Shown here one piece after another: positions 23,105 to 38,117 of a DNA stretch of 64,000 bases; within the stretch, counting starts at the first letter, position 1, and each line of letters starts with the position of its first letter. The position numbers and the translations under genes are program-made. The stretch is from Victivallis vadensis (GTDB taxonomy: Bacteria; Verrucomicrobiota; Lentisphaeria; Victivallales; Victivallaceae). Location: the NCBI RefSeq assembly GCF_003096415.1, contig NZ_QEKH01000013.1, positions 62,001-126,000 on the forward strand, written 5' to 3'. The notes under the pieces were generated by a model, which worked only from the letters and a program-made list of their open reading frames with translations, was not told where the DNA came from and searched no databases.

Positions 23105-25171
23105 ATGAACTACAGACTGTTTTCCCTGATCGCGGCGCTGGCCGCACTCCTCCCGGCCGGAGCCGGCACTCCCCGCATCACGGTCGACGCCGGGAAAAGC
23201 GCCGGACCGGTCAACCCGCTGGTCTTCGGAGCGAACATCGAAGCGGCCGACGACCGGGGGATTTTCGACCGCCCCCTGAATGCGCCGATCAATCCGCACG
23301 CGGTCGCGCAGGGCGAAGGGACCTGGGACCCGGCGGCGAACCGGCCCCATCCGAACATCGTGTGCAAACTCCGCGAAATGCGCATCGGCATGATGCGCTA
23401 TCCGGGCGGCTGCCTCGCGCACAACTACAACTGGAAGCAGGCGGTCGGACCACTTTCGGAACGGCCCGACTGGAAGTTCGGCATCGACGAGTACATCCGG
23501 CTCTGCCGGGCGCTCGGCGCCGAGCCGATCATCACGATGACCGACTACGCGCTGCCGGCGGAGGAGCTGCCGGAACACATGGCCGAACTGGTGGAGTACC
23601 TGAACGCCCCCGCGACGCCGGAACACCCATGGGCGATGAAGCGCGCGAAGTGGGGGAATCCAGAACCGTACTGCGTCCGCTACTTCGAGCTTGGCAACGA
23701 GAGCAGCCACGGCAGCCACAACCTCGTGCCGCGCCGCCACTACACGCCGGAGGAGTACGCCGCCTACTTCCGCTCCTGTGCCGCGGCGATGCGCCGGGTC
23801 GATCCGGCCGTGCGGCTCGGGATCGTGATGGAGCCGGGAACCGGCGAACAGTACGATTCGCCGTGGAACCGCACCGTGCTTGAACAGGCCGGAAAGGAGG
23901 CGGATTTCGTGGTGCTCCACTTCTATGCGCCGCGCATCGCGGACCAGACGCCGCAGCAGGCGCTGGCCGCCGTCCTCGCCTACGGCGATCAGGTAGAATT
24001 CCGGCTGAAGCAGTACCGGGAGCAGGCCCGCGCCCTGACCGGCAGGGAACTGCCGCTGGCGATGACCGAATTCAACATCGGTTCGACCGGCAACAAGCCG
24101 TATCCGTGGCGGTTCAGCTTCCTCGCCGGGCTGATGAACGCCGACCTGCAGCGCATCTGGCTGAAGCCGGAAAACGGCATCCTGTGCGCGAACTACTGGC
24201 AGGTGGTCAACGGCTACTGGGGCAGTTTCCGCAGCAACGAAAAAGGTGAAATCACCCTCCGGCGCGCTCCGGTTTCCTTCTTTGAAACCTGGGGCGGCTA
24301 TACCGGCAGCGAACTTGTGCAGACTGCCGTTGCGGATGCGCCGCGCCTCGACGCGGCTCCGGTTCCGGGTCTCGCAGTGTCGCGGGGCGGGCGGCTCCTC
24401 CTGCCGGAACCCGCCGGGGAGGCAAAGCCGGGCGCGATCTCCGGGAAACACTTCCCGGCCGGAATCGCACTGGCCGCGGCGGGAAAGGATTCGCTGACGA
24501 TCCGGTTCGACGGATTCGACGGCAAAAGCGCCTATCCTGAATTCGCCGAACTGCCGCGCCCGGCACAGATCCCCGCCGGAGATGCTTTCCGCTATCTGAT
24601 CTCATTCGAGGCGAAATATACGCCGGACCGGCCGGGAGAACGCCCGTCGGGAGCGTTCGGCCTGGGCATGGTCGACAGCCGCGGCTGGGAGAAAACCGCC
24701 TCCGCCGTTTCGATTTCCGGCATTCAGGCCGCAACGCAGTGGAAGCGATTCACCGGCAGCTATCAGGTGCTGCCCGACACTCCGGGAAGCAAAGTGCTGT
24801 TCCGTGTGGAAGGCGTTTCTGCTCCGCTCTCCGGCACGGTCGAAATCCGCAACCTGCGCTTTGCGCTCGAAACCCAGCCGGTGTTCCCGGCCTACCGCAC
24901 CCTGACGGCGCTCGCCAGCCGCAGCGCCGACGGCGGCACCCTCTATCTGACGGTATTCAATAAAGATCCGCAAAAGCCGGTCCGGGCGGAGGTGAAGCTG
25001 GAAAACTTCGACGCCGCAGCCGGTTCCGGTGTCGTGCTGGCCGCCGCGGCCCCGGAGACCGCAGCCGATACGATTCCGCGCCCGGTCGCGGTGAAACCGG
25101 CCTCCGGCAGCTTCGTTCACGAGTTTCCGGCGGCGTCGATGACCGCGCTGAAGTTCCGGCGCAACCGATAA
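23105..25171 (+). CDS. Secreted alpha-L-arabinofuranosidase (GH51-like)
   Basis: 688 residues with a signal peptide (MNYRLFSLIAALAALLPAGAG). The barrel shows GH51 hallmarks: NPLVFGANIE near 36, MMRYPGGCLAHNYNWK near 98-113, FELGNES with the acid/base Glu199, and MTEFNIG with the nucleophile Glu322. Residues after about 420 form a beta-sandwich with a carbohydrate-binding-type domain. It releases terminal arabinofuranose from arabinan, arabinoxylan or pectin side chains. A downstream sugar-acid kinase and aldolase in the same direction, 20 bases away, suggest a joint pectin-like substrate. GH51 and the related GH clan A families are hard to separate by eye. Confidence 0.85.
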   Translation: MNYRLFSLIAALAALLPAGAGTPRITVDAGKSAGPVNPLVFGANIEAADDRGIFDRPLNAPINPHAVAQGEGTWDPAANRPHPNIVCKLREMRIGMMRYPGGCLAHNYNWKQAVGPLSERPDWKFGIDEYIRLCRALGAEPIITMTDYALPAEELPEHMAELVEYLNAPATPEHPWAMKRAKWGNPEPYCVRYFELGNESSHGSHNLVPRRHYTPEEYAAYFRSCAAAMRRVDPAVRLGIVMEPGTGEQYDSPWNRTVLEQAGKEADFVVLHFYAPRIADQTPQQALAAVLAYGDQVEFRLKQYREQARALTGRELPLAMTEFNIGSTGNKPYPWRFSFLAGLMNADLQRIWLKPENGILCANYWQVVNGYWGSFRSNEKGEITLRRAPVSFFETWGGYTGSELVQTAVADAPRLDAAPVPGLAVSRGGRLLLPEPAGEAKPGAISGKHFPAGIALAAAGKDSLTIRFDGFDGKSAYPEFAELPRPAQIPAGDAFRYLISFEAKYTPDRPGERPSGAFGLGMVDSRGWEKTASAVSISGIQAATQWKRFTGSYQVLPDTPGSKVLFRVEGVSAPLSGTVEIRNLRFALETQPVFPAYRTLTALASRSADGGTLYLTVFNKDPQKPVRAEVKLENFDAAAGSGVVLAAAAPETAADTIPRPVAVKPASGSFVHEFPAASMTALKFRRNR

Positions 25172-25191
25172 AACCAACAGGGAGTTGATCT

Positions 25192-26289
25192 ATGAATAAA
25201 AATTATATCGCGGGTTTCGGCGAGGTGATGCTGCGGCTCTGCCCGCCGGGAAGGAAACGGTTCGCCCAGAGCCTGCCGGGCCCTCTTGAAGCGACTTACG
25301 GCGGCGGCGAGGCGAATGTCTGCGCTTCGCTGGCCATGCTCGGCGCGAAAGCCCGCTGCCTGACCGCGCTGCCGCCGAATCCGGTCGCCCAGGCGTTCGC
25401 GGCGGAACTGCGCGGCCTCGGCGTCGACACGACCCGGATCAACTGGAAACCGCGGGGACGCATGGGAGTCTACTACGCCGAACACGGCGCGGCACAGCGC
25501 GGCTCGAACGTGGTGTACGACCGGGAGGGGTCGACGATCGCGCTGCTCACCCCGGAGGAGTACGACTTCGACGCGATGCTCGAAGACGTGGGTCACTTGC
25601 ACCTCACCGGAATCACGCACGCCCTCAGCGAAAACGCCTGCCGTTCGACGCAGGCGCTGGCGGAGGCGGCGGCGGCGCGGGGCGTGACCATCTCCTGCGA
25701 CCTGAACTTCCGCAAAAAACTCTGGAACTGGCGCCCCGGCACCGCCCCGAAAGAGCTGGCCGCCGAGTGCATGGGCAAACTTGTGCCGCTGGCCGACTGG
25801 CTCATCTGCAACGAGGAGGACGCCGCCGATGTGTTCGGCATCCGCTCCGAGGCGACCGAAGTCGAGGCGGGCAAACTGAACGCCGCCGGCTACCGGGAGG
25901 TCGCGAAGCGGCTGCTCGAACGTTTCCCGAAGGTGTCGAAAGTCGCGGTGACGCTGCGCGAAAGCGTCTCCGCCGACCACAACAACTGGGGGGCGATGCT
26001 CTTCGACCGCGAAGCCGGAGCCTTTTTCGCCCCGCTCGACGCGGCGGGAAACTATGCGCCGTATGAGATCCGCGACATCGTCGACCGCTTCGGCGGCGGC
26101 GACTCCTTCGGCGCGGCGCTGATCTACGCGCTTTACAGCGATGAGTACGCCGAACCGCAAACGGCGATCCGCTTCGCCGCCGCGGCGAGCTGCCTGAAGC
26201 ACTCCATCCCCGGCGACTACAACTACAGCTCCCGGCAGGAGGTCGCCGCGCTGATGAACGGCTCCGGTTCGGGCCGGGTGGCGAGGTGA
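25192..26289 (+). CDS. kdgK: 2-keto-3-deoxygluconate kinase (PfkB family)
   Basis: 365-residue ribokinase-fold sugar kinase. The start GFGEVMLRLCPPG with YGGGEANVCASLAMLGA near 38-55, DREGSTIALL near 107 and CDLNFRKKLW near 170 match KDG kinases. The anion-hole/catalytic loop is FGGGDSFGAALIYAL near 300-314 (usually GAGD; here Gly replaces Ala). It phosphorylates 2-keto-3-deoxygluconate (or the galacto epimer) from uronate or galactonate breakdown. The adjacent aldolase gene completes the step to pyruvate and glyceraldehyde-3-phosphate. Confidence 0.85.
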   Translation: MNKNYIAGFGEVMLRLCPPGRKRFAQSLPGPLEATYGGGEANVCASLAMLGAKARCLTALPPNPVAQAFAAELRGLGVDTTRINWKPRGRMGVYYAEHGAAQRGSNVVYDREGSTIALLTPEEYDFDAMLEDVGHLHLTGITHALSENACRSTQALAEAAAARGVTISCDLNFRKKLWNWRPGTAPKELAAECMGKLVPLADWLICNEEDAADVFGIRSEATEVEAGKLNAAGYREVAKRLLERFPKVSKVAVTLRESVSADHNNWGAMLFDREAGAFFAPLDAAGNYAPYEIRDIVDRFGGGDSFGAALIYALYSDEYAEPQTAIRFAAAASCLKHSIPGDYNYSSRQEVAALMNGSGSGRVAR

Positions 26290-26293
26290 TGCG

Positions 26294-26905
26294 ATGACGT
26301 TTCAGGAACAGGCCCGACGCTGCCCCGTGGTGGCGATCCTGCGCGGCATCACGCCGGAGGAGATGCTCCCCGTCTGTGAAGCACTGCGCACAGCCGGAAT
26401 CCGGCTGCTCGAAGTCCCCCTGAATTCACCGGACGCGCTGGAGAGCATCCGGCACGCGGCGGCGAAGTACCATGCCGCAGGCGAACTGCTCGCCGGAGCC
26501 GGCACGGTCCTCACTGCGCAAAATGTCCGCGACGTGGCGGCGGCGGGAGGCCGCTTCATCATTTCGCCGGATGCGAATCCCGAAGTGATCCGCGAGACCA
26601 AGCGGCTCGGCCTCGTGTCGATTCCGGGCTTTTTCACCGCGACCGAAGCCTTCACCGCGCTGCGCGCGGGCGCGGACTACCTGAAGTTCTTCCCCGCCGG
26701 GAAACTCGGCCCGGGCTATGTCAAAGACCTCAAAGCGGTCATCAAAGCCCCGATCCTTGCGGTCGGCGGGGTCGACACGGACAACATCGCGGCGTTTCTG
26801 GACGTCTGCGCCGGAGTCGGAATCGGTTCGGCGCTGTACAAGCCGGGAAAAACACCCGCCGAAATCGAGCAGGCGGCAGCGGTGTACGCCGCCGCCGTCC
26901 GTTAA
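26294..26905 (+). CDS. dgoA: 2-dehydro-3-deoxy-6-phosphogalactonate / KDPG aldolase
   Basis: 203-residue class I aldolase. It reads like DgoA over its whole length: VVAILRGITPEEML, LLEVPLNSPDALESI with Glu40, AGAGTVLTAQNV, TATEAFTALRAGADYLKFFPAGKLGP with the Schiff-base Lys131, and APILAVGGVDTDNI. PLNSP favours the galactonate-type (DgoA) over classical Eda, but both activities are possible. It begins 4 bases after kdgK ends. Its stop codon overlaps the stop of the convergent rhamnosidase in a TTAA tetramer. Confidence 0.88.
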   Translation: MTFQEQARRCPVVAILRGITPEEMLPVCEALRTAGIRLLEVPLNSPDALESIRHAAAKYHAAGELLAGAGTVLTAQNVRDVAAAGGRFIISPDANPEVIRETKRLGLVSIPGFFTATEAFTALRAGADYLKFFPAGKLGPGYVKDLKAVIKAPILAVGGVDTDNIAAFLDVCAGVGIGSALYKPGKTPAEIEQAAAVYAAAVR

Positions 26906-28482
26906 CCGGCGACGACCTCCACCCCCTCCGGAGCGTCGATCTCCGGCCTGCCGGAGCGGCTCGCCGCCACCCGGACCGGGCCGAACGGCGTCGGCACGCT
27001 GCCCTCGGCGAAGTCGAGGCCGCACAGTTCCGGGCTGACCGCCACTTTGCGGCCGCCGGGTTCGAGGAACTTCACGCCGAGCACCCGTTCGCTCAGGAAC
27101 GGCGTCGGCCCCGCCGCCCAGCCGTGGCACAGGCTGTGGCGCAATCCCCGGTAGCAGTACTTGCCGAAATCGGCGTGCAGGTCGTCTTTGCCCGGCACCG
27201 GCAGTTCCGAAATCGGCGAGGTGTTCTTCAGCCAGTCGAGGTCGAAATCCTCCCAGAAAGTGGTCGCGCCGTAATCCAGCATCCCGCCCCAGAAGCGGCG
27301 GATCAGCTCCAGCGCCGGAGCGGTCGGCTGCGCCAGAAGCATGTAGTAGCCGTAGAAGGTGCTGACGCCGCGGAACGGATCGCGCGCCAATACGTCGGAA
27401 CGGTCCGCGATTCCGCTCAACGTCAGCATCGCGGCCGCCGCCTTGCTGTCGCCGCAGTCGGGCACGTGACCCATCATCCGCCGCGCGAACTCCAGCGGGC
27501 GGGAAGCGTCGATGCCGAGCGCGCCGCAGAGCTTCGCGCCGCACTGGAATGCGCGGCACAGCAGCCCCTGCAGCCCGGCGTGCATCGCGACCGGATTGTC
27601 GTTGTTCGGCCAGTCGAGGAAGCGGCGCGGCGGCACCATTTCGGAGCCGTCCTGATTCACATACTCCTCCAGTTGCCGCAGCAGGCCGGTCAGGTACTCC
27701 CGCTGTTCCTGTAAATAGACGAGGTCGCCGCGATGCAGATAGTATTCGTACTGGTTGACGATCCACCACAGAGAATAGCTGGTGATGTTGTTCATCACCC
27801 GCGGCAGCGGCGTGTGGTCCCGCACGAAGTCGAGGCTGGCCGGAATCAGCGACACATCGTCGAATACCGACAGAATGCCGCAGATTTCCGGGTGGAGATC
27901 CCCCATCCAGACCAGCCGGTCGCGTTTGGCGCCGTCGTAGATGTAATCCTGCATATTCAGCAGCAGCGTGTAGGCGCCGGTTTCCCAGATCCGGTTCAGC
28001 CGTTCGTCGGAGCAGCGGAAGGAGCCGCCGCGCTTCAGGTCGCGGTACAGCGCGACCGCGAGCACGTTCATCAGTTCGAGCTTCGCGTCGAGCGCGTCGA
28101 TCCGCACGAAGCGGAATGCGGTGTTGCCGTATTCGAGCATCCCCATCGCCGGAACCTGCAGTTCGGTGTCGTGAATCGCGTGATCCTGATTCGGCGCTCC
28201 CATCGCCTCGCTCGCCGACTCTCCGAACCGAAGCCGGATGCGCCCCGCGCCGGAGCGGTTCACGATCCGCACCCCGCCGTGCAGTTCAACGCCGAAGTCG
28301 AGCAACAGCGCGCCGCCGGGCTGCAGAATGCAGAGACGTTCGGAACCCGAAATGGAGGGCTGGATCGCCGGATTGCCCGGCAGGATTTCCGCGTTTTGCG
28401 CCTGTTCCGCCAGCATCACGCGGTGCACCGGCAGATATTCCCGAATCCGGGCGTCCCGGATCGCATTTTTATAAATCGACAT
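26902..28482 (-). CDS. Alpha-L-rhamnosidase-like protein (GH78)
   Basis: 526 residues without a signal peptide, starting MSIYKN at an ATG (28482) after GGGAG; a TTG two codons earlier is less likely. The N-terminal beta-sandwich (LLDFGVELHGGVRIVNRSGAGRIRLRFGES near 60-90) and (alpha/alpha)6 part with LLNMQDYIYDGAKRDRLVWMGDLHPE near 180-205 match GH78 rhamnosidases, where acidic residues in DGxxRDRxxWxGD take part in catalysis. It is shorter than many family members. Likely cytoplasmic cleavage of rhamnosides from pectin side chains or glycosides. Divergent from an AraC gene that is its likely regulator; its 3' end overlaps dgoA. Confidence 0.82.
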   Translation of the reverse strand: MSIYKNAIRDARIREYLPVHRVMLAEQAQNAEILPGNPAIQPSISGSERLCILQPGGALLLDFGVELHGGVRIVNRSGAGRIRLRFGESASEAMGAPNQDHAIHDTELQVPAMGMLEYGNTAFRFVRIDALDAKLELMNVLAVALYRDLKRGGSFRCSDERLNRIWETGAYTLLLNMQDYIYDGAKRDRLVWMGDLHPEICGILSVFDDVSLIPASLDFVRDHTPLPRVMNNITSYSLWWIVNQYEYYLHRGDLVYLQEQREYLTGLLRQLEEYVNQDGSEMVPPRRFLDWPNNDNPVAMHAGLQGLLCRAFQCGAKLCGALGIDASRPLEFARRMMGHVPDCGDSKAAAAMLTLSGIADRSDVLARDPFRGVSTFYGYYMLLAQPTAPALELIRRFWGGMLDYGATTFWEDFDLDWLKNTSPISELPVPGKDDLHADFGKYCYRGLRHSLCHGWAAGPTPFLSERVLGVKFLEPGGRKVAVSPELCGLDFAEGSVPTPFGPVRVAASRSGRPEIDAPEGVEVVAG

Positions 28483-28515
28483 GGCCAACTCCCTGTTTTT
28501 GTTGCATTATTATCA

Positions 28516-29594: not shown

Positions 29595-32144
29595 ATGATT
29601 GAACGCCGCTGGCTGGAACAGGCCGATGAAAATGGAGTCATCACCCGGATCGCCTATTTCGACAACGAAGCGGCCGGTCAACCGGTGCTGCTGATCCACG
29701 GATTCGCGGAATTTTCCTGCACCTGGGAACCGGTGCTGGAGTACCTGCCGCCGGATTTCCGCTACATCCGGCTGGATGTGAAGGGCTTCGGGTATTCGTC
29801 CAAGAACGATCCGGACCGGCTGTCGCTGTTCGACTTCACCCGCAGCACCGCCGACTTCATCCGTTCGCTGGACCTGAAGGATCTGGTGCTGATCGGCCAT
29901 TCGATGGGCGGGGCGATCTCCTCGCTGATCCTGAACTACTCCGACGTGCGCAGCCGGGTCGACAAACTGGTCCTGATCGACAGCGCCGGCATGTTCGAAC
30001 AGGTGCCGGCCTTCATCGAAACTCTGGCCGCGATGTCGCACGACAATCCGCTGCTGCGCTTCGCCAACGAGGATTTGATGGCCTATCTGATCATGCAGCA
30101 GGCCTATGCCAGCGAGATGAAGATCAGTCAGGAGCTGGTCGGAGCCTATGCCGAAGCGATGCGGCTGCCCGGTTCGCGCGAATGCGTGATCGCGGCGGCC
30201 AGACAGTTTCTGATTCCGAATGTGCCGGCTTTTCAGCAGGATCTGCGCAAGCTGCGGCTGCCGACTCTGATCATCTGGGGCGCACAGGACCGGATTATCC
30301 CGATGGAAGACGGTGAAAAATTCCACGACTGCATCGCCGGTTCACGGTTGGAGGTGCTGCCCGAATGCGGCCATTCGCCGCAGGAGGAGTGCCCGGAGGA
30401 AACCGGCAGGCTGATCGCCGATTTCCTGCTGGACGCTCCCCCGGCGCCCGCGCCGGAAACGTCAACGGAACTGCTGCCGGCGAAGGCGGCCGCCCCGGTG
30501 GTGGAATCCCGGTCGCTGCGGGAGCGTTCGATGGATCAGCTGCGCCAGTTGCGCGACGTCTACAAACTCCGGATGACCCGGCTGGTCGACCGCTGGAGCT
30601 TCGGCACGATCTTCCTGCTCGGCTTCATCAAGGTGCTGCAACTGCTGAAAAAGCTCGGCATGAGGGCCGAGGAGAACGGCTGGCGCAAGGCGACCGGCAT
30701 TTTCCTGCGCAGTGAATACTCCAAATTCGTGCTCTCCTGCTTCCGGTTGAACTATTATCACGGCAGCCGCCCCGACAATCCGGTTTCGGCCCGGCTGGAG
30801 CTGATTCACCATCTCGGCGAATACATCCGCAATCACAGCCAGCTTCACTGGTCGGCCAGCCCCGGCTGGTTCCGGCTGGGACGGCGCAAGGTCTGGTTCA
30901 CGGATGTGGCGGAGGCGTTCTACGACCGCACCGGCGAGCTGCTGTGGATCGAAATGCACTTCGACCCGGGGCGTGAAAATTTCCAGCTCCTCGACACGGA
31001 GGCGGTCAAGGCGGTGATGCGCGAAGCCGTCCGGCTGATCAACAACCTGCGCCGCCACGACAGCAAGGAGGTCAGCCGCCGGTTTTCGACCCGGCTCCGG
31101 CGCTGGGCCCGCAAAGTGCCCGGCTACAGCTATGCCGCGAGATTCGAGCTCAAGAACCTGGTGGAGCGGCTGCTGACCGCAACCTTTATCCACTGCGAAT
31201 TCCTGCCGGACGATCCGGTTGCGCTGAACGCCAGACGGCTGGCCACGCCCAATCTGCGCAAATACCGCAATCCCGGCTGGGGGCTGCTGAATGTGATCGC
31301 GCGCTTCACGCCGGATTTCCGGGAAGTCGACCTCTGGATGCAGTACCACCACGTGCCGGTCGACGGCATGCCGATGCAGGAACTGCTCGCCGACCTGAAA
31401 CACAACTGGGGGAACTTCGGGACGCTGCCGTTCCCGCCCGCCGGAAGCCCGGCGGCGAAACCGGAGGTGCAGTACGCGGGCAACCGGCTGTTCCGCTGCC
31501 GCTTCTTCGTGGACTTCGAGCCGCTGCTGGCGCTGCGCCGGGAGCTGAATGAAAAGTACGCCACGCTGATGGAAGGCCCCGCCACGGTCGCCGGAATGAT
31601 CATCTGGGGAATGGCCCAGCACCGCTTCTTCCGCAACGGCAAGATGCTCTTTCCGGTCGACACCGACCTCGAAGGGCGCAATCCGGCGGAGCGGGAACTG
31701 AGTCTGGTCTTTATCCGGGCGGGGCGCTACTTCGACCGCAACAATCCGCTGAGCTGGTTCATCAACTTCCAGAAAGAGTTCAACCGCCGCCTGTGGCGCA
31801 CCCGGCGCGGTGAAAGCGAGAGCTACGAGCTGCTGGAGCTCTATTCGATGATCCACCCGCTGTTCTACCAGATCGGCCACCGGCTGATGCCGGAGGCGAT
31901 GAGCGAATTCGTCGGTTCGATGGGCATTTCGATCCTGCGCGACTCGGAAATCTTCATCAGTCCGCTGAGCGACCTCCAGATCAACGGCTTCATGACCATC
32001 AGCAACCTGACCCAGCCGACCGAGGACGGCAAAACCGCCGGGGCGGTCTGCGCCTGCGGCACCCGCGACCAGATTCGCTTCTACCGCGAGGCGATGGAAA
32101 ATCTCGCCGCCGGCTACCGCTCTTTCCTGCAGCCGCGCGTGTAG
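29595..32144 (+). CDS. Alpha/beta-hydrolase fused to an HHxxxDG acyltransferase-like domain
   Basis: 849 residues. Residues 1-280 are a complete alpha/beta hydrolase: oxyanion motif HGF at 35-37, nucleophile elbow GHSMGG with Ser103, Asp232 in WGAQDRI, His260 in ECGHSPQE. A Pro/Ala linker (281-305) leads to a 545-residue C-terminal part with an amphipathic or membrane-associated helix near 340-360 (FGTIFLLGFIKVLQLLKK). It then carries HHVPVDG at 585-591, the active-site motif of the chloramphenicol-acetyltransferase/condensation/wax-ester synthase superfamily. No typical DFGWG is seen. No signal peptide. It stands alone between an AraC gene and a convergent beta-helix gene. A role in acyl transfer to lipid or glycan followed by hydrolysis, or the reverse, is an inference. 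The start follows GAGGA by 13 bases. Confidence 0.75.
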   Translation: MIERRWLEQADENGVITRIAYFDNEAAGQPVLLIHGFAEFSCTWEPVLEYLPPDFRYIRLDVKGFGYSSKNDPDRLSLFDFTRSTADFIRSLDLKDLVLIGHSMGGAISSLILNYSDVRSRVDKLVLIDSAGMFEQVPAFIETLAAMSHDNPLLRFANEDLMAYLIMQQAYASEMKISQELVGAYAEAMRLPGSRECVIAAARQFLIPNVPAFQQDLRKLRLPTLIIWGAQDRIIPMEDGEKFHDCIAGSRLEVLPECGHSPQEECPEETGRLIADFLLDAPPAPAPETSTELLPAKAAAPVVESRSLRERSMDQLRQLRDVYKLRMTRLVDRWSFGTIFLLGFIKVLQLLKKLGMRAEENGWRKATGIFLRSEYSKFVLSCFRLNYYHGSRPDNPVSARLELIHHLGEYIRNHSQLHWSASPGWFRLGRRKVWFTDVAEAFYDRTGELLWIEMHFDPGRENFQLLDTEAVKAVMREAVRLINNLRRHDSKEVSRRFSTRLRRWARKVPGYSYAARFELKNLVERLLTATFIHCEFLPDDPVALNARRLATPNLRKYRNPGWGLLNVIARFTPDFREVDLWMQYHHVPVDGMPMQELLADLKHNWGNFGTLPFPPAGSPAAKPEVQYAGNRLFRCRFFVDFEPLLALRRELNEKYATLMEGPATVAGMIIWGMAQHRFFRNGKMLFPVDTDLEGRNPAERELSLVFIRAGRYFDRNNPLSWFINFQKEFNRRLWRTRRGESESYELLELYSMIHPLFYQIGHRLMPEAMSEFVGSMGISILRDSEIFISPLSDLQINGFMTISNLTQPTEDGKTAGAVCACGTRDQIRFYREAMENLAAGYRSFLQPRV

Positions 32145-36203: not shown

Positions 36204-38117
36204 TCAGTTGTTCCCGGGTTGAAGCGTCAACAGAAATTCGATGTTGGTCTTGACCTTCTTCAGGCGGCCGAGCAGCAATTCCATCGCTTCCGCCGGCGGA
36301 ACGCCGTTGATCGCCTTGCGCAGGATCCACACCTTGTTGAGTTCATCCGGATGGAGCAGCAGCTCCTCTTTGCGGGTGCCCGATTTTTCCACATTGATCG
36401 CCGGGTAGATGCGCCGGTCGGAAACGTTGCGGTCGAGGTGCAGTTCCATATTGCCGGTGCCTTTGAACTCCTCGAAGATCACGTCGTCCATGCGGCTGCC
36501 GGTTTCCACCAGCGCGGTCGCGATGATGGTCAAACTGCCGTGGTTCTCGATGTTGCGCGCCGCTCCGAAGAACCGCTTCGGCTTGTGCAGCGCGGTCGCG
36601 TCCACACCGCCGGTCAGGATCTTGCCGCTGTGCGGCTGCAGCGTGTTGTAGGCGCGGGCGAGACGGGTGATGCTGTCGAGCAGGATCACCACATCCTGTT
36701 TGTATTCGACCATGCGCTTGGCCTTTTCGATCACCATTTCGGCGACCTGAACGTGCCGCTCCGGCGGCTCGTCGAAGGTGGAGCTGACCACTTCGGCGTC
36801 GACGCTGCGCATCATGTCGGTGACTTCCTCGGGGCGTTCGTCGATCAGCAGAATGATCAGCTTGACCTCCGGGTTGTTGGCGCGGATACTGTTCGCGATT
36901 TTCTGGAGCAGCACGGTCTTTCCGGTGCGAGGCGGAGCGACGATCAGGCCGCGCTGTCCTTTGCCGATCGGCGTGACCAGGTCGACGATCCGGGTGGAAT
37001 AATCCGCAGGATCGCGCTCCAGCACCAGCCGCTGGGTCGGGAAGTAGGGGACCAGGCTGTTGAAGGGGATGATCTCCTTCTTGCGTTCGGGCGAGTCATT
37101 GTTGATGCTCTCGACCTTCAGCATCGCGAAAAAGCGTTCCTTTTCGCGCGGGGTACGGATCTGGCCGGCGATGAAGTCGCCGGTTTTCAGCGCGAAACGC
37201 TTGATCTGCGACGGCGACAGATAGATGTCCTCGGAACAGGGCAGATAGCTGTAGGAGGGCGACCGCAGGAAGCCGAAACCGTCCGGCAACACTTCGAGGT
37301 AGCCGGAGCCGAACATCTGGCCGCATTTTTCCGCATTGGCCCGCAGAATCTCGCACACCAGCGTCGACTTATCCAGCGCGCCGATGCCCTCGATGCCGAG
37401 TTCGGCCCCCATCACGGCAAGCTCCTGCATCGACTTTTCCTGAAGCTCGCTGATGTTCAGCGAGGGACCGATATGATCGCGCTGCGGCTCTTCGCGCTGT
37501 TCATCGCGCGGCTCACGGTTATTATAATTTTCACGCGGTTCACGGTTGCCGTTATAGTTTTCGCGCGGTTCGCGGTTGCCGTTATAATTTTCGCGAGGCT
37601 CGCGGTTGTTGTAGTTTTCCCGCTTATTGTAATTTTCGCGTTTGTTGTTTTCGCGCGGCTCACGGTTGCCGTTCTCCTGGAATTCCCGGGGTTGGCGGTT
37701 TTCACGGTTGTTATTGTCGCGATTGTTGTTTTCGCGACGGGGGCGCCCACGGCGGGGAGCCGCCTGACCGTTCTCCTCCGCGGAGTTCTCCTGACGTTTG
37801 CGGACCGGCGTTTCGCGGGCGGGTTCCGAAAGCTCCTCCAGCAGAAGTTCGCGCATCACCGCATCGGAGGTCGCCGCTACTTCAGCCTGCTGGTCGGCCG
37901 GAGCGGCAACCGGTTCCGCAGCCGCAGCGGCGGGAACCGCTTCCGGCTCCGGGATGAACGGCAGGTCGGCAGTCAGTTTTTCGGCGGATTCCGTCTCGCT
38001 TTTTTCCGCGGGAGCAGTCTTGGCTTTGGGTTTGCGGCCGCGGCGTTTCGGGGCTGCGGGCTGTGAAGTTTCGCTTCCGGCCTCGCCGGCCGGAAGAAGT
38101 TCGGTGATTTCATCCAT
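36204..38117 (-). CDS. rho: Transcription termination factor Rho with long disordered N-terminal extension
   Basis: 637 residues against about 420 for ordinary Rho. Residues from about 223 form the normal protein: the N-terminal helix bundle ([22 protein letters not shown]), the RNA-binding fold ([15 protein letters not shown]), P-loop [15 protein letters not shown] near 400, [11 protein letters not shown] and the ring-forming end ([24 protein letters not shown]). Residues 1-222 are disordered: an acidic/Ala region, two AT-hook-like motifs (RRGRKPK near 26, RRGRPRR near 122), then an Asn/Arg/Glu-rich tract with tandem [10 protein letters not shown] decapeptides near 172-200. The gene follows coaE by 7 bases and precedes the FtsB-like gene. 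Extended Rho proteins are known in several phyla. Confidence 0.96.
37516..37680 (-). repeat. Tandem short repeats coding for [10 protein letters not shown]-type units in Rho
   Basis: Several degenerate 30-39-base units coding for RENYN and NREPREN. Nearby units differ mainly at third codon positions, so the amino-acid pattern appears to be kept while the DNA drifts. They are in frame and part of the rho reading frame. Confidence 0.8.

Follow-up and report, generated by a model that had tools for sequence, protein, structure and literature searches.

A window of 64,000 nucleotides from the genome of Victivallis vadensis contains a single reading frame whose product, a protein of 849 residues, begins as an α/β hydrolase and ends as a second region carrying an HHxxxDG motif, and the question raised by this locus is what a chain joining these two parts would do. 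In the initial annotation, made from the letters of the DNA, it was proposed that one chain could both transfer and remove an acyl group. The frame itself is intact and closed by a TAG stop codon, and its start codon is consistent with those of its homologues, which begin with MDERRY or MNERRY. The fusion described there is real, since 22 other sequences align with the protein along its full length, with identities of 37–71%. The Pro/Ala linker that had been noticed between the two parts is also present; the pLDDT of the model falls there to 24–37, and the sequence is variable among the homologues. The folded, CAT-like part of the C-terminal region begins at about residue 355–375. The coordinates of the features are collected in Table 1.

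Table 1. Positions, in the 64,000-nucleotide window, of the fusion gene and of the parts of its product.
Feature	Position in window	Strand	Basis or remark
Whole gene, 849 residues, fusion of α/β hydrolase and CAT-superfamily acyltransferase-like domain	29595..32144	+	Full-length homologues
N-terminal α/β hydrolase domain, residues 1–280	29595..30434	+	PF00561, triad census, ABHD6/6i8w profile matches
Codon of the hydrolase nucleophile, Ser103	29901-29903	+	Triad partners Asp232 and His260
Pro/Ala-rich linker, residues 281–317	30435..30545	+	Low model confidence; gappy alignment
C-terminal acyltransferase-like region, residues 318–849	30546..32141	+	CAT-superfamily fold; remote profile similarity to NRPS condensation domains
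Conserved hydrophobic helix, residues 336–354, FGTIFLLGFIKVLQLLKKL	30600..30656	+	Hydropathy; conserved W334, K346, and Q349
HHVPVDG motif, residues 585–591	31347..31367	+	51/51 homologues; strand–loop–helix in the model

The N-terminal domain is the better defined of the two in terms of known families. Residues 1–280 match PF00561 with an E-value of 3.7e-28 (99 bits, compared to a cut-off of 25.8), and this match, together with the conservation of the residues concerned, bears out the full catalytic triad that had been read from the sequence, with Ser103 in GHSMG, Asp232, and His260 in CGH. The triad is kept in nearly all fused homologues. Of the 22 aligned homologues with a residue at this position, 21 have the nucleophilic serine, the sole exception being L022, where it is replaced by phenylalanine, and the oxyanion HG is altered to GG or PG in L010, L030, L031, and L024. 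The top matches to the profile of the N-terminal family are ABHD6, a monoacylglycerol lipase (7ots, 5e-35), and a membrane phospholipase A (6i8w, 7e-33), which suggests that the substrate of this domain may be a lipid ester. The similarity to both enzymes is at the level of the superfamily only, with about 25% identity by Foldseek, and, unlike them, the domain described here is fused to an acyltransferase domain. The best NCBIfam match, PRK14875 (acetoin dehydrogenase E2), spans only residues 18–278, which belong to the hydrolase part, and an identity as an E2/lipoyl acyltransferase was rejected.

Of the two halves, for which separate profile searches had been suggested in the initial annotation, the hydrolase matches PF00561, and the C-terminal part matches no Pfam or NCBIfam family even at an E-value of 10; a sequence search of the PDB with the C-terminal part likewise gave no meaningful match. 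Condensation (PF00668) is matched by two of 23 homologues, with a best E-value of 0.0039, and is not matched by this protein at E ≤ 10. In a profile–profile comparison with NRPS condensation domains, for which the probability given by hhalign itself is low (9–10%), the family scores 33.7. The 30 column shuffles gave 12.6–25.3, the reversed profile gave 17.8, and two unrelated families, represented by the profile of the LCAT-like protein described below and that of the hydrolase, gave 17.9 and 21.2, respectively. A lenient alignment with the condensation domains extends over 364 columns, with HHxxxDG in register.

Since a Foldseek search with the full-length model listed hydrolases only, the C-terminal part was modelled alone. 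The AlphaFold model of residues 355–849, built from six sequences, has a mean pLDDT of 65.5 and a pTM of 0.65. Searched against the PDB, it gave 33 matches at E ≤ 0.001 with probabilities of 0.96–1.00, and all 33 belong to the CAT superfamily, including BAHD enzymes, the C, E, and Cy domains of NRPS, and choline acetyltransferase; no viral structure was matched at E ≤ 0.001. The motif lies in a loop, with pLDDT below 50, between strand 578–584 and the long helix 594–605, and such a strand–loop–helix position is where HHxxxDG is located in C domains (PMC11546977). The TM-scores to the fold matches are low, at about 0.2–0.4, with rmsd values of 10–18 Å over long alignments and poor packing of the lobes. 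In view of this lack of a clean superposition, the assignment to the superfamily rests on the agreement among the hits, the position of the motif, and the profile score. Residues ~355–849 are thus, with high confidence, a member of the CAT/HxxxD superfamily, in which they represent a new family, whereas any assignment to a subfamily is of low confidence. The acyltransferase-like character that had been proposed for this domain is upheld by these matches, and the structure prediction that had been advised places HHVPVDG in a CAT-like strand–loop–helix, in a model of modest confidence.

The CAT superfamily comprises, besides the NRPS C domains, the BAHD, PapA, WS/DGAT, and choline/carnitine acyltransferases, and what the family described here has in common with it is HxxxDG in a strand–loop–helix, the fold, and the in-register profile alignment. 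It differs from the other members in falling below every Pfam and NCBIfam cut-off, in the variability of the first histidine of the motif, and in conserved motifs of its own. Compared to the NRPS C domains, it has an extra conserved hydrophobic helix at its N terminus, and it is accompanied by neither a carrier protein nor an adenylation domain. A fragment of an NRPS was rejected, as there is no PF00668 match in this protein and no adenylation or carrier domain is fused to it; the earlier remark that this is not an ordinary NRPS piece remains valid, with PF00668 below its cut-off and the domain fused only to an α/β hydrolase or to nothing. A free-standing C domain is, in turn, used in a gut fatty acid amide pathway (PMC13142362), and the protein could be a stand-alone condensation enzyme that forms an amide or ester from a carrier-bound acyl group, with the hydrolase acting as a type II thioesterase. 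While PF00668 is the sole sequence-profile signal, and NRPS C and E domains are found among the fold matches, the BAHD enzymes outrank them in the fold search, a search of the genome of the window with PF00668 gave no match, and the only recurrent neighbour found is an LCAT-like gene. We consider such a condensation enzyme quite improbable.

The HHVPVDG motif is located where it had been reported, and His586, Asp590, and Gly591 are identical in 51 of 51 divergent homologues. The first histidine, at position 585, may be His, Asn, Ser, or Gln, so that the effective motif is HxxxDG. When the residues of the protein are shuffled, HHxxxDG arises in 27 of 20,000 draws, and this frequency, together with the invariance of the three residues, indicates that the motif is no chance event. 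The same invariance argues against a C-terminal domain that has the CAT fold and serves, non-catalytically, as a scaffold or regulator, in the manner of the X domain of NRPS, a member of the superfamily that functions in recruitment (PMC11546977); this appears extremely unlikely. Further conserved motifs of the family are Q583, M594-Q595-E596, ESYELLELY at residues 742–750, and SPLSDLQ at residues 789–795. Of the strongly hydrophobic helix that had been described, the helix itself is found, at residues 336–354, but its hydropathy is moderate, the mean Kyte–Doolittle value of this most hydrophobic stretch of the protein being 1.46. Residues W334, K346, and Q349 are conserved in 49–50 of 50 homologues. 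Due to the moderate hydropathy and the conserved lysine in its middle, this element resembles a monotopic or amphipathic helix more than a classic transmembrane segment, and it is likely to be membrane-associating.

A search with the C-terminal profile found a copy in 49 of the 149 class genomes sampled, all of them in one order, and, across the phylum, in 38 of 289 genomes, none of them outside Victivallales. No copy was detected in G001 and G006, two genomes that belong to the same genus. When 85,000 species genomes were scanned with patterns suited to close relatives only, all records returned belonged to Victivallales/Lentisphaeria. No match was found by tblastn in the plasmid and phage collections; an origin from either was rejected on the basis of this result and of the viral structure search mentioned above.

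Among the 50 sequences placed on the tree, 36 are fused, which makes this the commonest form, and 14 are without the hydrolase. The best tree contains five changes between the fused and unfused forms, at least four of them forced by starred branches, with one of the five hanging on the long-branched L119. The hydrolase-less copies retain the HxxxDG motif, and the acyltransferase half is always kept. Since no fewer than four separate clades lack it, the fused hydrolase is dispensable. Its repeated loss from a fused ancestor would be the simpler reading, although the tree leaves the direction of the changes unproved. These results bear directly on the possibility that the single chain is an exchange or editing enzyme, with two active sites that act on one and the same acyl group in turn. 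Both sites are intact here and in most fused homologues, and the prevalence of the fused form would agree with such a function; however, at least four clades without the hydrolase keep the acyltransferase, Ser103 and the oxyanion HG are altered in the homologues listed above, and the linker is variable and modelled with low confidence. An enzyme of this type seems unlikely, and the part of the initial annotation that treated transfer and removal in one chain as an essential unit found no support, as the hydrolase is absent in those clades and even its nucleophile is lost in L022. The fusion is nonetheless real, conserved, and unusual in detail, and it is built of known chemistries.

In the window, the gene is preceded by those of an arabinofuranosidase/GH39-like protein, a PfkB kinase, a KDPG aldolase, a rhamnosidase (on the opposite strand), and an AraC regulator, the last of which ends 114 bases before the fusion gene. 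Downstream are the genes of a β-helix protein (on the opposite strand), a LysM protein, and Rho. These neighbours are carbohydrate and housekeeping genes with no evident tie to the fusion gene, and the statement that it has no biosynthetic neighbours holds within the window. In a survey of neighbour families around the acyltransferase copies, no lipid, acyl-carrier, or glycosyltransferase genes were found to adjoin them consistently. Some of the apparently conserved neighbour families (2 and 9) resemble ORFs that run antisense to GC-rich genes.

One gene, encoding an LCAT-like serine hydrolase, adjoins the acyltransferase gene in many genomes; the two then share a strand, and the gap between them is very small or absent. 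Among the 149 genomes of the class, the partner is present in 45 and the acyltransferase in 49, with all 45 contained within the 49 and neither gene in the remaining 100, these being raw genome counts that include shared ancestry. The four genomes in which the acyltransferase has no detected partner are G002, G003, G043, and G020, the last of them with a partner fragment only. A comparison of coordinates places the two genes side by side, on one strand, in 20 of the 45 genomes and apart in more than half. In the genome of the window, the partner is encoded on another contig (G000:C22:4654-6129, corresponding to L090:1099-2574), which is why the window appears lonely. Neither the LCAT-like neighbour in related genomes nor its near-perfect co-occurrence with the acyltransferase had been noticed in the initial annotation.

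The partner encoded in the genome of the window consists of 491 residues, starts with a lipobox-like N terminus, and matches PF02450 with an E-value of 1.9e-8 (34.4 bits, compared to a cut-off of 21) over model positions 69–213 of 392. The alignment of the partner sequences shows invariant HG, Ser, Asp, and His residues in HG, HSMGG, GDGK, and HMG. A lipobox-like cysteine is found by pattern in nine of 13 partner sequences, and the partner is probably exported and lipoprotein-like in most of its members. It resembles the LCAT/PDAT family (PF02450) in that several members match above the cut-off and in the conserved Ser-Asp-His residues, whereas its bacterial origin, the putative lipobox in most members, and the partial coverage of PF02450 set it apart. 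Outside the order, a few genomes of the phylum, G298 and G238 among them, also contain LCAT-like relatives, but no acyltransferase adjoins these, and a partnership extending beyond the order was rejected.

With ABHD6-like and LCAT-like hydrolases as partners, both of them lipase-like, and with the superfamily and the HHxxxDG motif in common, the acyltransferase could be viewed as a WS/DGAT-like storage-lipid enzyme that makes wax ester or triacylglycerol from acyl-CoA, while the two hydrolases act on neutral lipid, mobilising or transacylating it in a PDAT-like manner. However, PF03007 (WS_DGAT_cat) has no match in the C-terminal region of this protein, on which ground membership in WS/DGAT was rejected, and a lipoprotein-like, probably exported partner would be ill-suited to cytosolic storage granules. 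PF03007 is also without a match in the sampled genomes, which shows little, as the control genomes are equally blank. A storage-lipid function of this kind is, in our judgement, improbable.

The reading that we favour, with confidence evenly poised, is that of a two-enzyme system of acyl-lipid assembly or remodelling in Victivallales, in which the 849-residue protein would be a cytosolic or inner-membrane-bound acyltransferase. It would use His586 as the general base and an acyl thioester of CoA or ACP as the donor, the acceptor being a hydroxyl or amine group on a membrane lipid or glycolipid, and helix 336–354, which is conserved, would retain it at the membrane. Once exported and anchored by its lipid, the LCAT-like protein would hydrolyse or trans-esterify the product outside the inner membrane, comparable to the action of Chp2 on the product of PapA3; the placement of the two enzymes on opposite sides is deduced solely from whether or not each has a signal sequence. 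The fused N-terminal hydrolase would have an accessory role, as an esterase or lysolipase for the trimming or proofreading of acyl chains, useful yet dispensable.

In mycobacteria, acylation of trehalose by PapA3 in the cytosol is followed by trans-esterification on the periplasmic side, where Chp2 acts on the product of PapA3 (PMC4183827). Both the pair of PapA3 and Chp2 (polyacyltrehalose) and the analogous case of Chp1 (sulfolipid) involve an acyltransferase and a separate, membrane-bound serine α/β hydrolase that trans-esterifies its product (PMC4183827). The PapA enzymes belong to the CAT superfamily. The comparison covers the pairing and the types of domains. In the Victivallales pair, the hydrolase is LCAT-like rather than cutinase-like, an extra hydrolase is fused to the acyltransferase, PKS, FadD, or MmpL neighbours do not recur, and identity with PapA is unsupported by the profile. 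We infer that the pair may work like PapA/Chp and make no claim that it is a PapA/Chp system. We can further speculate, although we consider it doubtful, that a lineage-specific pathway exists in which the acyltransferase builds a partly acylated lipid inside, the exported LCAT-like hydrolase completes it outside by transacylation, and the fused hydrolase edits it, yielding an undescribed envelope lipid.

A search of the literature found nothing on this fusion or on comparable acyltransferases of Lentisphaeria. Both chemistries are already known, and the acyltransferase family, as judged by this protein, lies outside Pfam and NCBIfam. Through its tight partnership with the LCAT-like protein, a protein that would otherwise be anonymous acquires a function that can be tested, and the fusion and the partner together point to undescribed lipid making or remodelling in Victivallales. 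The results also show that the conspicuous fusion can be dispensed with and that the gene to learn from is the unlinked one, located elsewhere in the genome. An acyl-lipid system dedicated to this task and restricted to a single order would offer a handle on the envelope lipids of Lentisphaeria, which include gut bacteria (Victivallis).

Several additional features of these loci were observed. The partner gene adjoins 12 of the 14 hydrolase-less copies (L055–L060, L062–L065, L116, and L117), compared to about nine of the 36 fused ones, a bias that may reflect either a clade effect or functional substitution. A BatA-like VWA-domain gene is found near the pair in L031, L089, L062, and L063, four loci in two lineages; as a general third neighbour it was rejected, as was the AraC family, present in three loci only. 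In G238, which is outside the order, broken and frameshifted LCAT-like copies (L127 8059-9081 and L126 7457-8808) lie near transposase-like ORFs and are not accompanied by the acyltransferase. In the window itself, the genes at 23105-28488, for the GH39/arabinofuranosidase-like protein, the PfkB kinase, the KDPG aldolase, and, on the opposite strand, an alpha-L-rhamnosidase, form a carbohydrate-use cluster, and the Rho factor encoded at 36204-38117 includes a long Asn/Arg/Glu-rich repeat insertion ahead of its RNA-binding domain.
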